DNA of 64,000 nucleotides from Haloplanus sp. GDY1. GTDB taxonomy: Archaea > Halobacteriota > Halobacteria > Halobacteriales > Haloferacaceae. Positions 7,830 through 17,102 of the stretch are shown here, in pieces; within the stretch, counting starts at the first letter, position 1, and every line of letters starts with the position of its first letter. Below the pieces are notes generated by a model, which saw only the letters and a list, made by a program, of their open reading frames with translations, did not search any database and was not told the origin of the DNA. Where the stretch lies: the NCBI RefSeq assembly GCF_023703775.1, contig NZ_CP098514.1, positions 1,116,001-1,180,000 of the forward strand, written 5' to 3'. Position numbers and translations under genes: made by a program.

Positions 7830-9977
7830 ATGACGGAGACGGAAACCATCACGGTCGCGGACGTGAGCGAGGGCCCGGGCGGCGACGCCGACGCCGATCC
7901 GGGGACGCCGGTCTCGCTCCCGGTGGTGGAACTGCTCACCGGCCGGGGGTTCGTCACGGGGAAGTCGGGGTCGGGGAAGTCGAACACCGCGTCGGTGCTC
8001 GTGGAGAACCTCCTGGAGAACAACTTTCCGGTGCTCGTGGTCGACACGGACGGCGAGTACTACGGCCTGAAAGAGGAGTTCGAACTCCTGCACGCGGGCG
8101 CGGACGACGAGTGTGACATCCAGGTCAGCCCGGAACACGCCGAGAAGATCGCGTCGCTGGCGCTGGAGGGGAACGTCCCCATCATCCTCGACGTCTCGGG
8201 GTACCTCGACGACGACGAGGCGAAGGAACTCCTGCTCTCGGTCGCGCGCCACCTGTTCGCCAAGGAGAAGAAACTGAAGAAGCCGTTCCTGATGCTCGTC
8301 GAGGAGGTCCACGAGTACATCCCGGAGGGCGGCGGCCTCGACGAGACGGGGAAGATGCTCATCAAGATCGGCAAGCGGGGCCGGAAACACGGCCTCGGCA
8401 TCGTCGGCATCAGCCAGCGCCCCGCCGACGTGAAGAAGGACTTCATCACGCAGTGCGACTGGCTGGTGTGGCACCGGCTGACGTGGAACAACGACACGAA
8501 CGTGGTGAGTCGGATCATCGACGCCGAGCACGCGAACGCCGTCGAGGACCTGGGCGACGGCGAGGCGTTCCTGATGACGGACTGGAGCGAGTCGGTGCGG
8601 CGGGTGCAGTTCCACCGCAAGCGCACCTTCGACGCGGGGGCGACGCCCGGCCTCGACGACTTCGAGCGCCCGGAACTCAAGTCGATCAGCGACGACCTGG
8701 TGGCGGACCTCCGCGAGATCAGCGACGAACAGGAGCGCCGGGAGAGCGAACTCGCCGACCTGCGACAGGAGGTGGAGAAAAAGGAGCAGCGCATCCGCGA
8801 ACTGGAGGCGGAACTGGAGGAGGCCCGCGACCTCTCGCGGATGGCCGACAAGTTCGCACAGGCGATGCTCCGGAAGGCCGAGGCGCCGTACCGCGGCGGC
8901 GAGGGCCGGAACCGCTCCCGGCCGATGCCGTCGGACCAGGCGGAACTGGGGGCGTACGAACCGGACGACGACGGGGCCGAGGACGACCGGAGCGCCGCCG
9001 AGGCGGCGGACGCGCCGACCGACGACGGGGGGAGCGAGGCGTTCCCGAGGATCGAGCCGAACGACTGGCCGACGCCCGGGCCGGTGGCGATCAGGGGCGA
9101 CGACGGGGACGGGAGCGGCGAGGAGGAGTCGGCGACCGGTGACGCGACGGTCGACGACACGGCGCCCGACGACACGGCGCCCGACGACGCGACGGCCGAC
9201 GACACGGCGACCGACGACGCGCCGGACGGGCAGACGGACGTGACCTTCGACGCCGGAGGCGCGCCTCCCGAGGCCGCGAGCGCCGACGCGGACGACGACG
9301 GGGCGGTCGACGACGGGGCGGCCGACGACGACGGAGCGGCCGCCGAACCCGGAACCCGCGAGGCGGTGGTCGCCCGACTGCGGCGGACGGTTCAGGACCT
9401 GCCGGACCTCTCGCGGGCGATGCTCGCCCACTACCGCGAGGCCGGGCGAGCCGACCCGGTCGACGCCCACGTCGCGGCGGGCGGGACGCCGAAGAGCACG
9501 CTCGCCTACGGCCGGAACCGGCCGCTCCGCCGGGCGGGGCTGATCGAACACGTCGACCGGGAGACCTACCGGTACGCCCTCCCCGACCGGGTGGCCGAAC
9601 GCTTCGACGGACACCTCGACGACGACGCCCTCGCGTCGATGACGCGATCGGTCGAGCGCGCGTTCGTCGACGAGGCGACGCTCTCGGGCGAGTCGCTCGG
9701 CGCGAGCGCCGACGGCGGTGCCGACGCCGACGACCCGGGGCACGTTCCGACCGAGGAGCGGCCGGACGTGGAGGTCGTGTCGGACGACGACGCCGTGCAA
9801 CCGGACGACGGGTTCGTCGCCGAGGACGCGGCGATCATCGACGACGGGACGGAGGACGGGGCGGCCGACGCCGAGGACGACGAACGCGAGTCGAAGCAGG
9901 ATGCCACGGACGCGGGCGACGGCGAGGGGAGCGCGACGCCCGCCGAGAGCGACACCGGCGGCGTGGAGATCCTCTAG
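7830..9977 (+). CDS. HerA-like ATPase with long acidic linker and C-terminal winged helix
   Basis: A 715-residue ATPase of the HerA/FtsK superfamily (DUF87 group). Walker A GKSGSGKS is at residues 44-51; Walker B is FLMLVEEVHEY; the arginine-rich sensor region GISQRPADV follows. A coiled coil (RRESELADLRQEV... near residues 295-345) leads into a disordered acidic stretch with DDTAPDDTAPDD repeats (near 9150-9230). A C-terminal winged-helix-like segment (TPKSTLAYGRNRPLRRAGL) follows, then another acidic tail. No NurA nuclease gene is adjacent, so a role in end resection is uncertain; related proteins pump DNA. ATG 7830 is the first codon consistent with the family; a longer frame to 6816 overlaps dinB and is spurious. 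Confidence 0.85.
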   Translation: MTETETITVADVSEGPGGDADADPGTPVSLPVVELLTGRGFVTGKSGSGKSNTASVLVENLLENNFPVLVVDTDGEYYGLKEEFELLHAGADDECDIQVSPEHAEKIASLALEGNVPIILDVSGYLDDDEAKELLLSVARHLFAKEKKLKKPFLMLVEEVHEYIPEGGGLDETGKMLIKIGKRGRKHGLGIVGISQRPADVKKDFITQCDWLVWHRLTWNNDTNVVSRIIDAEHANAVEDLGDGEAFLMTDWSESVRRVQFHRKRTFDAGATPGLDDFERPELKSISDDLVADLREISDEQERRESELADLRQEVEKKEQRIRELEAELEEARDLSRMADKFAQAMLRKAEAPYRGGEGRNRSRPMPSDQAELGAYEPDDDGAEDDRSAAEAADAPTDDGGSEAFPRIEPNDWPTPGPVAIRGDDGDGSGEEESATGDATVDDTAPDDTAPDDATADDTATDDAPDGQTDVTFDAGGAPPEAASADADDDGAVDDGAADDDGAAAEPGTREAVVARLRRTVQDLPDLSRAMLAHYREAGRADPVDAHVAAGGTPKSTLAYGRNRPLRRAGLIEHVDRETYRYALPDRVAERFDGHLDDDALASMTRSVERAFVDEATLSGESLGASADGGADADDPGHVPTEERPDVEVVSDDDAVQPDDGFVAEDAAIIDDGTEDGAADAEDDERESKQDATDAGDGEGSATPAESDTGGVEIL

Positions 9978-13025: not shown

Positions 13026-13531
13026 AGGTACTCGAGGAAGTCGACGTCGCCGGCGCTCGGCTCTCGGTCGCCGGCGATCACCGCCTCGATGTCCGCGGCC
13101 ACCTCGGCGGGCGTCCGCCCGGTCGTGTCGATCTCGTAGACGTTTCCCGTGCCGTGGCGGTCCACCGCTTCGGAGAGAATCACGTCGAGCGCCTCGCTCT
13201 CGGCGTTCTCGGCCGCCTTCTCCTCGCTCGCGCCGCGTTCGCGCAGGCGGTCTTCGAGCACGTCGGGCCGGCACCGGAGGACGACCACCCGGTCGGCGTC
13301 GAGGTGGTGAGCGAGGTGGGACTCGGCGACGCCGGACCAGTCGCCGACCGCCTCGCGGACGGCCTCCAGGTCGGCGACCAGCGAGTCGCGCTCCTCGTCG
13401 CGCTCGGTCCAGAGGCCCGCCTCCCGAACGAGTTCGTTGAGGTGGACGACCGGGCCGTCGAGCAGGGTCGTCGCCGTCGTCTTGCCGGTGCCGGGGGTGC
13501 CGGTGACGGCGACCCGCAGGTCGTCGCTCAC
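13022..13531 (-). CDS. Adenylate kinase, Fap7/hCINAP type
   Basis: A 169-residue nucleotide kinase starting at GTG 13531, overlapping the hisC stop by 4 bp. The P-loop GTPGTGKTT is at residues about 11-19; HLNELVRE and the Asp/Arg-containing LID region (VLRCRPDVLEDRLRERG) follow. This short archaeal group is related to Fap7, which has adenylate kinase activity and acts in late small-subunit rRNA maturation with Rps14. So it may serve ribosome assembly as well as nucleotide balance. Middle gene of the hisC-adk-phosphatidyltransferase operon. Confidence 0.87.
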   Translation of the reverse strand: MSDDLRVAVTGTPGTGKTTATTLLDGPVVHLNELVREAGLWTERDEERDSLVADLEAVREAVGDWSGVAESHLAHHLDADRVVVLRCRPDVLEDRLRERGASEEKAAENAESEALDVILSEAVDRHGTGNVYEIDTTGRTPAEVAADIEAVIAGDREPSAGDVDFLEYL

Positions 13532-14610
13532 GCGCGCACCTCCGCCAGGACGTCGTTGATGGTCTCGACGGCCCGAGGCGTGGTCTCTCGGGTGCCACAC
13601 GAGACGCGAACGCACTCCGGAAGGCCGAAACTGGAGCAGTCGCGGACGATGACGCCCCGGCGCTGGGTGGCGTCGGCGACGGCGGACGCGTCGCCGACCT
13701 CCGCGAGGACGAAGTTGCCGCCGCTCTCCCAGGTCGGCGCGTCGAGTTCGTCGCGGAGGTAGGCACGCGCCCAGCGGGCCGTCTCGACGGTCCGTTCGAG
13801 GTGGTCGTCGTCGTCGAGGGCGGCCAGCGCGGCCCGACAGCCCACCTCGCTGGCGGCGAAGGGGGTGTTGACGCGGGCGTAGGCGTCCGCCCACGACTCG
13901 GGCACGACGCCGTAGCCGACGCGCAGGCCGGCGAGGCCGTAGGCCTTCGAGAACGTCCGCGTGACCGCGAGGTTGTCGTACTCGTCGAGCAGGTCGACGG
14001 CCGACGGCGCCTCGGTGTACTCGGCGTAGGCCTCGTCGACGACGAGGAGCGTGTGGTCGTCGACCGACGCGGCGAGTTCGCGGATCGCCGGCCGCGAGAA
14101 CTCGGCACCGGTCGGGTTGTGGGGCGTCGTGAGGTAGACGATCCGCTCGCCGTCGTAGGCGTCGAGGACGGTGGCGGGCGTCTGGGCGAAGTCGTCGGCC
14201 TTCGACAGCGGGTAAGTGGCCACCTCGCCGTGGTGATAGCGGGCGCTCATGCGGTAGTAGGAGAAGCCGGGGTCGGGCGCGAGCACCCGGTCGCCCGGGT
14301 CGAGGAAGGCCCGGGAGAGGTAATCGAGAGCGCCGTCGGCACCCGGCGTCACCCAGACCTGTTCGGGGGCGACGTCCCAGCGATCGGCGAGTTTCTCGCC
14401 GAGGTCCGTGTGGGAGGCCTTGGGGTAGACGCCGACCCGGGGCGCCGTCTCGCGGATGGCCTCGACGGCCGCCGGACTCGGGCCGTGCGGGTTCTCGTTC
14501 GAGGAGAGTTTCGTGAGGTCGTCGGGGTCCATCCCCAACTCGCGGGCGACCTCCTCCGCGCCGCGGCCGGGGACGTACGGCGAGAGTCCCGAGAGATCCC
14601 GTGGTTGCAT
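13528..14610 (-). CDS. hisC: Histidinol-phosphate aminotransferase
   Basis: A 360-residue class I/II PLP aminotransferase of the HisC family, which makes histidinol phosphate from imidazole acetol phosphate. Family marks: LSSNENPHGPSP near the N-terminus, HNPTGAEFS, DEAYAEY, and the PLP lysine in RTFSKAYGLAGLRVGYG. ATG 14610 (MQPRDLSG) fits the family start. A CTTAAG motif 23-28 bp upstream (near 14633-14638) could be its TATA element. It heads an operon whose genes overlap by 4 bp. Confidence 0.93.
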   Translation of the reverse strand: MQPRDLSGLSPYVPGRGAEEVARELGMDPDDLTKLSSNENPHGPSPAAVEAIRETAPRVGVYPKASHTDLGEKLADRWDVAPEQVWVTPGADGALDYLSRAFLDPGDRVLAPDPGFSYYRMSARYHHGEVATYPLSKADDFAQTPATVLDAYDGERIVYLTTPHNPTGAEFSRPAIRELAASVDDHTLLVVDEAYAEYTEAPSAVDLLDEYDNLAVTRTFSKAYGLAGLRVGYGVVPESWADAYARVNTPFAASEVGCRAALAALDDDDHLERTVETARWARAYLRDELDAPTWESGGNFVLAEVGDASAVADATQRRGVIVRDCSSFGLPECVRVSCGTRETTPRAVETINDVLAEVRA

Positions 14611-14665: not shown

Positions 14666-15151
14666 TCACGCGTCGATGGCGTCGATCCCCTCGTGAGCCA
14701 GTTCGAGCGTCTCGGTCGCGACGTCGGGGCGGTCGGCGGCCAGTTTCGGGCCGGCCCACCGAAGGGGCGTGGCCGCCCGACAGCGCCAGCCCCGCGCCCG
14801 GTCGCCGGCGTCGTCGAGCAGGAAGACGCACACGTCCCGCGCCTCGACGGCGCCGTCGACCCAGTCCCGCAGCCAGTCCCAGAGCCGTCGGTCGTCGGTG
14901 ACGCCGCGGCGGAGCCGGAGGGGCGGCGAGTCGGTGCGTCGCCGCTCCGGTGTGGGCGCGGCGCCGAGGGCTCGCCCGGGGCGGTCGAGCCAGTCGAACC
15001 AGTCGGGCGCGCCCTCGTCCCCGTCGGCCGGCCGGGCCTGGACGCGAACCGAGAGGCCGGTCACCTCGGTGAAGCCGAGCGGCGGGCGGTCGTCCCCGAG
15101 GTCGACGTCGAACCGGTGGCGGAGGTAGGGGTCGACTGGCCGGTCGGTCAT
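14666..15151 (-). CDS. Phage/eCIS tail-tube-like protein (T4 gp19 family), second copy
   Basis: A 161-residue protein of the gp19-like tail-tube family (TIGR02241-type). Diagnostic segments: GFTEVTGLSV in the N-terminal strand region, LRLRRGVTDDRRLWDW in the middle, and the C-terminal pattern CRAATPLRWAGPKL ... TETLELAHEGID. Tube proteins of this family stack as hexamers inside contractile tails of phages and extracellular contractile injection systems. The middle contains a divergent insertion (WFDWLDRPGRALG). ATG 15151 overlaps the stop of the upstream homologue (ATGA). No sheath, baseplate, spike or AAA+ gene is near; function here is unknown. Confidence 0.78.
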   Translation of the reverse strand: MTDRPVDPYLRHRFDVDLGDDRPPLGFTEVTGLSVRVQARPADGDEGAPDWFDWLDRPGRALGAAPTPERRRTDSPPLRLRRGVTDDRRLWDWLRDWVDGAVEARDVCVFLLDDAGDRARGWRCRAATPLRWAGPKLAADRPDVATETLELAHEGIDAIDA

Positions 15152-15717
15152 CGCTTCGTTCGGGAGTCCGTGCCGTCCCGCGATCCGCCCCTCGGCGTCT
15201 CGGACGGCGCGTCGAGGGACGCCTTCCGCGGTGGCGCCCGCTCGTCGCGGCGGCTCCCGCCGTCCGTCTCTCCGGAGGCGTCGGCGCGCTCGACCCCCTC
15301 GGAGACGATTTCGAGCGTCTCGATGGCGACGGCCGAGCGGTTGGCGTCGAGCGCTGGCCCCTCGTAACGGGCGGGCCAGGCGTTGCGGAACTCCCACCGG
15401 GCCGCCGTCGCCCCTTCCTCGTCGAGGAGGACGACGGCGATGGCCCGGCGCGCCTCGTCGACCTTGCCCGACTCGACGAGACGCCGCCACTCGGCGAGTT
15501 CGACGGAGGCGTCCGTGACGCCCGCGCGGAGCACGAGGGGGCCGTAGTCGTTCAGGCCGGCGAGTTTCCGTGGCGTCGGCCGCTCGTTGCCCTCGCGATA
15601 CTCCACGACCGACGTCGACGCGGACGGGAGCCGACAGCGGCTGAAGCCGGCCTTCGCGATGCCGTCGATTTCGAGGAGGAATCGGGCCACCCGGAGCGGG
15701 CCGTGTCGGTCAGGCAT
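15148..15717 (-). CDS. Phage/eCIS tail-tube-like protein (T4 gp19 family), first copy
   Basis: A 189-residue gp19-type tube protein with an almost complete family pattern: FLLEIDGIAKAGFSRC, VVEYREGNERPTPRKLAGL, LVLRAGVTD, WRRLVESGKVDEARR, WEFRNAWPARYEGPALDA and VAIETLEIVSEGVER. The last 50 residues are a disordered charged tail (from about residue 140) not typical of tube proteins. It overlaps the next tube-like gene by 4 bp, and the two share only family-level similarity, like the paired tube proteins of Afp/PVC-type systems. The divergent gene at 15858 is an unrelated amidohydrolase. Confidence 0.82.
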   Translation of the reverse strand: MPDRHGPLRVARFLLEIDGIAKAGFSRCRLPSASTSVVEYREGNERPTPRKLAGLNDYGPLVLRAGVTDASVELAEWRRLVESGKVDEARRAIAVVLLDEEGATAARWEFRNAWPARYEGPALDANRSAVAIETLEIVSEGVERADASGETDGGSRRDERAPPRKASLDAPSETPRGGSRDGTDSRTKR

Positions 15718-15857
15718 GGACGCGCTCCGGGGACGGCGGTGTCGATTCTCGTGGTGTGGTACCGTGACTCATTCAGTTGGGACGACTCACCGTGCGCTCT
15801 TGAAGGTTTCCGGTGTGACCGGTCGGTATTTTGAGTGGTGGCCCCGTTGCACGAGAT

Positions 15858-17102
15858 ATGCGGATCGCTATCGACCGACGACGACTCGTCGACCGACTGC
15901 AAGAACAGGCGAACATCGGCGGCATCGACGGCGAACGCGGGCTCGACCGGGTGACGCTGTCGGAGGCCGACCGCGAAGTTCGCGACTGGTTCCGGGACCG
16001 GATGACCGACGCCGGACTCGACGTCCGCGTCGACGAGGTGGGCAACGTGTTCGGCCGGCGACCGGGGGCGGACCCGGACGCGGGGACGGTGCTGCTCGGG
16101 TCCCACCTCGACAGCCAGCCACACGGCGGCATCTACGACGGCCCGCTGGGCGTTCTCGCCGCCCTCGAGTTCGTCGAGACGCTGGAAGACGAGGGAATCA
16201 CGACCGAGCGGCCGGTCGAACTCGTCAACTGGACCAACGAGGAGGGGTCCCGCTTCCAGCCGGCGATGATGGGGAGCGGCGTCTGGGCCGGGGCGCTTTC
16301 GCAGGAGGCGGCGTACGAGGCGACCGACCGGGACGGGGTTCGCTTCGTCGACGCGCTGGAGCGGATCGGCTACCGCGGCGACGTCCCCGCGGAGCCGGGG
16401 TACGACTACGACTCGTATCTCGAACTCCACATCGAACAGGGGCCGCGCCTCGACGACGCCGGCGACGACGTGGGCGTCGTCACGGGCGTGGTGGGGTTCC
16501 AGTGGGGGGAGATCACGTTCGAGGGACAGGCGAACCACTCCGGCACGACCCCGATGCACCACCGGCGCGACGCGCTGGTCGGCGCCGCGGACGTCATCAC
16601 GGGGGTGCGTCGGATCCCGGGAACGCTCGGGGAGCGAACCGTCGGCACGACGGGCGTCATCGAGGCCGATCCGGGATCGATCAACATCGTCCCCGGCGAG
16701 GTCACGTTCACCGTCGGCTTCCGGGACCCGGACGACGAGACGGTCGCGGAGGCGGTCGACCGGGTCAAGGGCGAGGCGGCGGCGGCGGCGGAGCGCGAGG
16801 GCCTGGAGTGGCGCTACGAGGAGCGCATGTCGGTCGAGAGCGTCGACTTCGCCGACCGGTGTGTCGACGCCGTCCAGTCGGCGGCCGACGACCGGGGGTA
16901 CGCCTCCCAGCGACTGGTCAGCGGCGCCGGCCACGACGCGACGCGCGTCGCGAGCGTCTGCGACGCCGCGATGGTCTTCGCGGTGAGCGAGGACGGCAAG
17001 AGCCACTCGCCACAGGAGTTCACCGACTGGGACGACTGCTACGCGGCGGCGGACACGCTGGCGAACGCCGCCCTCGACCTGGCCGGAGTGGCGGACGAGT
17101 AG
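15858..17102 (+). CDS. Amidase, hydantoinase/carbamoylase family (M20)
   Basis: A 414-residue zinc hydrolase of the N-carbamoyl-L-amino-acid hydrolase / allantoate amidohydrolase group. Metal-binding motifs are in order: GSHLDSQPHGGIYDG (His, Asp), NEEGSRF (Glu pair), ELHIEQGP (His) and GAGHDATRVA (His). It would cleave an N-carbamoyl group to amino acid, CO2 and ammonia. Hydantoinase genes hyuAB lie 37 kb away on the other strand; a shared pathway is possible but not shown. ATG 15858 matches the family start. Its promoter region is shared with the divergent tail-tube gene. Confidence 0.85.
   Translation: MRIAIDRRRLVDRLQEQANIGGIDGERGLDRVTLSEADREVRDWFRDRMTDAGLDVRVDEVGNVFGRRPGADPDAGTVLLGSHLDSQPHGGIYDGPLGVLAALEFVETLEDEGITTERPVELVNWTNEEGSRFQPAMMGSGVWAGALSQEAAYEATDRDGVRFVDALERIGYRGDVPAEPGYDYDSYLELHIEQGPRLDDAGDDVGVVTGVVGFQWGEITFEGQANHSGTTPMHHRRDALVGAADVITGVRRIPGTLGERTVGTTGVIEADPGSINIVPGEVTFTVGFRDPDDETVAEAVDRVKGEAAAAAEREGLEWRYEERMSVESVDFADRCVDAVQSAADDRGYASQRLVSGAGHDATRVASVCDAAMVFAVSEDGKSHSPQEFTDWDDCYAAADTLANAALDLAGVADE

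Follow-up and report, generated by a model that had tools for sequence, protein, structure and literature searches.

A sheath-free pair of tail-tube genes in Haloplanus and other Halobacteria suggests reuse of a contractile-injection tube

What role can two tail-tube genes have in an archaeon when no sheath gene lies beside them? The question is raised by a locus within the window, i.e., the 64,000-nucleotide stretch of Haloplanus sp. GDY1 DNA analysed here (contig NZ_CP098514.1, positions 1,116,001 to 1,180,000), where two genes, referred to as A and B, overlap by a few nucleotides (Table 1). To our knowledge, every tail tube described so far belongs to a contractile or a phage machine. A previous inspection of the letters alone (the sequence-only reading) had recognized the ATGA overlap, which is plainly present in the sequence, and had taken both products for gp19-type tube proteins.

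The latter assignment is borne out by profile searches. Both proteins match PF06841 (A: E 5e-37, 127 bits; B: E 3e-20, 73 bits) over nearly the whole profile of 134 positions, and both exceed the TIGR02241 cut-off of 62 bits with scores of 126 (A) and 66 bits (B). Among the NCBIfam equivalogs for contractile injection systems (CIS), CIS1_fam is the best match of A and CIS5_fam that of B, so that the likeness to Afp1/Afp5 drawn in the sequence-only reading is apt; the equivalog cut-offs themselves are missed by A (109 vs 220 bits for CIS1) and by B (68 vs 260 bits for CIS5). In the AlphaFold (AF2) models, pLDDT is mostly about 90 in the core of A and averages 83 in B. When these models were compared with the PDB, CIS tube and adaptor proteins ranked on top (Foldseek E about 1e-8), as the fold proposed earlier had led one to expect, with VIA Z values against solved structures of up to 11.8 for A and 14.4 for B, and sequence profiles of A and B led to the same relatives. 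A and B are members of the tail-tube protein family with a predicted gp19/Hcp fold.

Table 1. Features of the window around genes A and B, and loci of single tube-fold proteins in other genomes
Feature	Position	Strand	Remarks
hisC-type aminotransferase (flank)	13528..14610	-	own conserved upstream region; outside the unit
tube protein B (Cis5-like)	14666..15151	-	161 aa; putative ring-contact loop replaced
B segment replacing CIS loop YEEGGVNxxxHxLP	14924..15046	-	residues 36-76; variable insert
ATGA overlap, A stop and B start	15148..15151	-	4 nt; type typical of translational coupling; read in sequence
tube protein A (Cis1-like)	15148..15717	-	189 aa; gp19/Hcp-fold core residues 1-147, then disordered tail
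low-complexity C-terminal tail of A	15151..15282	-	about residues 146-189; mostly pLDDT < 50
leader ORF	15710..15772	-	20 codons, MSHGTTPRESTPPSPERVHA; TGA within ATGCCTGA at A start codon
promoter-like element	15799..15811	-	GGAAACCTTCAAG; a variant of the Haloplanus element GGAAAGTTTCAA upstream of A
M20-family amidohydrolase (flank)	15858..17102	+	divergently transcribed; elsewhere in the genus a GMC oxidoreductase gene here
single gp19-fold proteins with N-terminal twin-arginine-type signal	L068:9518-10090, L069:9728-10312, L071:9853-10413		

The sequence-only reading had seen nothing else tail-like around the pair and had proposed a look for sheath and ATPase genes elsewhere in the genome. 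In the whole genome (3.44 Mb, 99.5% complete; G000), A and B are the only PF06841 genes, and genome-wide searches found no sheath (PF04984), no Baseplate_J (PF04865), no Cis8-type spike and no gp25 (PF04965). A Cis15-type ATPase was likewise not found in this genome, which yields generic AAA+ matches of <=76 bits as compared with 567-1570 bits in CIS controls. Since the queries for sheath, spike, gp25 and Cis15 do score in haloarchaeal CIS genomes (the sheath query in 17 of the 17 such genomes in the family sample), these absences are meaningful within search sensitivity; the Baseplate_J query was run without such a control. The name CIS is inappropriate for the pair, as the defining parts were searched for and not found. 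The same results bear on the idea that A and B are the working part of a CIS encoded elsewhere in the genome. Orphan tube (hcp) genes of type VI secretion systems (T6SS) can feed a distant apparatus, and the pair might be an orphan tube island of this kind. However, given the missing sheath, baseplate J, spike and gp25 in a genome of such completeness, and the proven reach of the sheath, spike and gp25 queries, we regard this as very improbable.

The pair is not peculiar to the window. Among the 148 genomes of the family sample, 45 contain a relative of A: in 17 of them a sheath gene lies beside the tube gene (the CIS genomes), 24 have an adjacent A-B pair and in none of these does a sheath score above the cut-off, and four carry a single, more divergent tube gene. 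The sheath-free pair occurs in Haloplanus (eight genomes), Halorubrum (group g14, mostly of this genus), Haloferax (g28; H. prahovense, H. massiliensis, H. marisrubri, H. sulfurifontis and H. gibbonsii), Halorientalis (g51, of another family) and the strains XH8 (g26) and SHRA6 (g2), and in a more divergent form in one further genus (G350). In a class-wide sample of 391 genomes we counted 25 orphan-pair genomes including that of the divergent G350 pair; for G201, G256 and G350 the sheath search covered the 15-17 kb fetched, and the spike, gp25 and Cis15 searches were genome-wide. The survey of neighbourhoods suggested by the sequence-only reading has thus revealed a sheath-free pair that recurs in several genera. 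A description of such a pair was not found in the open-licence literature searched.

The genomic setting indicates what is gained or lost. Within each genus the position of the pair is fixed, and between genera its neighbours differ. Seven of the eight Haloplanus pairs are flanked by a GMC oxidoreductase gene on one side and by hisC on the other; in one of the seven, A is separated from the GMC gene by about 2 kb of other DNA. In the window the GMC gene is not beside the pair and its place is taken by the M20-family amidohydrolase gene, so the two neighbours had been named correctly from the start. In four congeners without the pair the GMC gene abuts hisC at a distance of 57-144 nt. From these clean empty sites it follows that the pair alone is the unit gained or lost, and its lack in some congeners implies that it is dispensable. 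Seven congeners have genes for a GMC oxidoreductase and a gluconate-dehydrogenase-subunit-3-like protein upstream; a functional connection of the pair with these was rejected as a general explanation because other genera have other neighbours and the empty sites keep the GMC gene beside hisC.

In a maximum-likelihood tree a single clade (100/97), nested within the haloarchaeal CIS tubes, unites all orphan A proteins and spans several genera and two GTDB families. It also takes in one long-branch fragment from a metagenome-assembled genome (MAG), and strict monophyly of the orphans was not rejected (p-AU 0.41). This fragment is the tube A of a Natronomonas MAG (L122:3308-3787) on a contig of only 5 kb, where B was not detected downstream and sheath was not found in the 3.3 kb upstream. 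A viral origin of the pair was rejected, as no relative was found in IMG/VR and the only phage matches are to Streptomyces phages at about 27% identity; a plasmid cassette was rejected too, the plasmid matches being distant, bacterial and below 60% identity. The dN/dS values obtained in three genera are 0.18-0.26 for A and 0.23-0.29 for B, and by this sequence-based measure both genes are under purifying selection.

These data bear on the two readings that had been offered for the pair, namely the last remains of an extracellular CIS or a domesticated tube with a new use. According to the former, A and B would be on their way to loss by drift after deletion of the sheath, baseplate and spike genes. 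Descent of A and B from CIS tube genes, the lack of the pair in four congeners and the disappearance from B of an otherwise invariant CIS loop (see below) are all compatible with decay. Nevertheless, decay is strongly disfavoured by the purifying selection measured in three genera, and it accords poorly with a single clade shared by several genera of two GTDB families, with the absence of frameshifts and the preservation of start-stop overlaps, and with new residues that are invariant in B. We therefore consider it quite unlikely. Domestication is favoured because the pair recurs in several genera, belongs to one clade, is under purifying selection, has lineage-specific derived features and possesses a putative promoter and a leader of its own.

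The nearest described relatives are the haloarchaeal CIS, or archaeal T6SS, of the Halogeometricum borinquense type (PMC11566945), whose cis1 and cis5 genes are homologous to A and B and occur in the same order. According to the same paper, Haloferax volcanii has no CIS. Most Cis1 proteins compared are 59-64% identical to A, the most distant one 45%. The orphan pair differs from these systems by the lack of sheath, baseplate, spike and Cis15 ATPase, by the adjacency of A and B as opposed to tube genes about 0.6 kb apart, by a leader ORF ahead of A, and by a B protein that lacks the EGG loop and contains C124 and W97. EGG is present in all CIS B proteins compared and in none of the orphan B proteins, which means that this hallmark of the Cis5 tube adaptor is missing from every orphan B. 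The segment found in its place contains tryptophan in most lineages and is rich in arginine in Haloferax. Cys124 is present in 17 of 17 orphan B proteins versus 2 of 40 from CIS, and Trp97 in 17 of 17 orphans. Among 80 loci of named genomes this variant of B was never found together with a sheath, and wherever a B was detected at a locus that has a sheath, it was of the CIS form. In Hcp1 of Burkholderia the L2,3 loop touches the next ring, and its mutation blocks ring stacking (PMC4650826). Judged from its position between strands, the EGG loop of CIS B proteins would correspond to this L2,3 loop.

A retains its own loop (YREG) and has changed in another respect, the net charge of its core being -4 (range -7 to -2) versus -13 (range -19 to -10) in haloarchaeal CIS tubes, with no overlap of the ranges. 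Cys28 of A was rejected as an orphan-specific mark because it is also present in 16 of 55 CIS rows. The sequence-only reading had further pointed to a disordered tail of 50 residues in A; disorder is indeed predicted, yet over about 40 residues only. The pairs of Halorubrum, Halorientalis and XH8 have no such tail, which is thus not a defining feature and was rejected as a functional hallmark. The tails of SHRA6 and Haloferax (L059, L060-L067) have in common a short motif, G-[LV]-PQGID, amid low-complexity sequence.

Expression of the pair appears to be organized in a particular way. A leader ORF, defined as 17 to 49 codons with an ATG or GTG start and a stop that begins at most 5 nt ahead of, or 8 nt past, the first base of the A start codon, was found before each of the 30 orphan A genes examined, which represent only about seven independent lineages. 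Such an ORF also precedes 56 of 246 other genes of the same loci, a control rate (23%) that is not negligible, and 0 of 10 CIS tube genes. The Haloferax leader has 24 codons in all eight genomes and evolves neutrally (pN/pS 1.01). A conserved peptide was rejected for Haloferax on these grounds, and it seems to be the reading of this leader, not its peptide, that matters. The junction of leader and A is ATGCCTGA in most Haloplanus genomes, which is the published -8 overlap, and by their coordinates A and B overlap by -4 in Haloplanus, Haloferax and SHRA6. In Haloferax volcanii, -4 and -8 overlaps mark coupling, and such short distances allow termination-reinitiation and show an 8-fold enrichment for heteromeric complexes (PMC10666635). 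Coupling of A to B is not universal, since gaps of about 10-120 nt separate the two genes in Halorubrum, Halorientalis and XH8. In Haloplanus the promoter-like element is conserved at a distance of 81-105 nt upstream; its strict pattern is found in six of the eight genomes and a looser form in the other two, with about 0.008 occurrences expected per 170 nt. The promoter regions of the pairs at L052-L054 and L056 (Halorubrum) and at L082 contain a palindrome-like element (GTTGTCAATAGACAAC and variants) that may be an operator.

Retention of the pair without sheath, spike and baseplate in several lineages suggests that the tube has been reused for a new job. We give about even chances to A and B forming a CIS-derived, stand-alone and co-translated ring or short-tube assembly. 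The fuller proposal is somewhat more tentative: a two-protein ring or short-tube nanostructure that was derived once, has no contractile part, is expressed under leader coupling and serves a new function, e.g., as a conduit, scaffold or capping device. In this scheme, A and B would be made in a fixed ratio, with the leader coupled to A and, in Haloplanus, A to B via ATGA. Having kept its ring-contact loop, A probably forms rings able to stack. Loss of the corresponding loop makes B probably a terminal or cap ring, or a partner of A in a mixed ring, which would halt extension. The product would then be cytoplasmic and short, an A/B assembly as opposed to a long sheath-driven tube, and it is tempting to speculate that the flexible Trp- or Arg-rich segment of B is a contact arm to a partner, a membrane or cargo. 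The high variability of the A tails and of the B insert suggests that there is no common partner, and no conserved neighbour hinting at a function was found across the genera.

Known tube proteins provide precedents for parts of this proposal. Afp1/Afp5, Pvc1/Pvc5 and the tube and adaptor of AlgoCIS have the same fold and the same pairing of paralogues as A and B; unlike the latter, they work inside a complete contractile particle. Hcp rings have the tube fold in common with A and B at a low identity of about 5-16%, and are T6SS-associated. In the solved Hcp2-Hcp3 heterohexamer of Bacteroides fragilis (PDB 9vne), two tube paralogues are combined in a single ring. As with A and B, the tube fold occurs without a sheath in single gp19-fold proteins with Tat-type signals from Halorubrum and a g6 genome (L068, L069 and L071), in whose genomes sheath was not found. 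These are encoded by one gene without a B partner, are 33-38% identical to A and were left out of the tree. L071, with a lipobox-like LSGC, passes TIGR01409, and L068 matches weakly, which suggests from sequence that exported tube-fold proteins exist in haloarchaea.

Such proteins document the fold in new settings, and together with the tube features kept by A they lend some weight to the possibility that A and B are the tube half of an unlinked, unrecognized device for delivery or export that otherwise consists of parts without homology to known CIS genes. On the other hand, A and B lack a signal sequence, no neighbour is common to the genera, and the clean two-gene gain or loss implies that no linked partner is needed; we deem such a device unlikely, although it deserves to be kept in mind. 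Similar odds apply to the main functional rival, i.e., that A and B act as an interference decoy which spoils the tubes of incoming contractile phages or CIS, either by co-assembly or by capping. Orphan and CIS-type pairs were found together in the same genome in none of 391 cases (about 2.9 expected, P about 0.04, ancestry being ignored), the presence of the pair is patchy within genera, and B would resemble a ring that is not extendable on one face. A decoy is at odds, however, with the lack of relatives in IMG/VR and of any related halovirus tube among our search results, with phage matches confined to those of Streptomyces mentioned above, and with loci at which no defence-gene neighbourhood was seen.

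If A and B are indeed a domesticated module, a sheath-free tube pair under selection would mean that the tube itself is useful in the cell, with a single traceable origin in Halobacteria. Direct tests are feasible, since Haloferax species close to a genetic model carry the pair.

Two further arrangements of tube genes were encountered in passing. In one genus, two genomes have a single tube gene with no sheath nearby (L167:7299-8586 and L178), which in L167 is followed by a gene whose product combines a Peptidase_S74 (tail-fibre chaperone) domain with a coiled coil. The CIS locus L168 (G212; 8261-9154) contains one sheath gene followed by two tandem Cis1-like tube genes.
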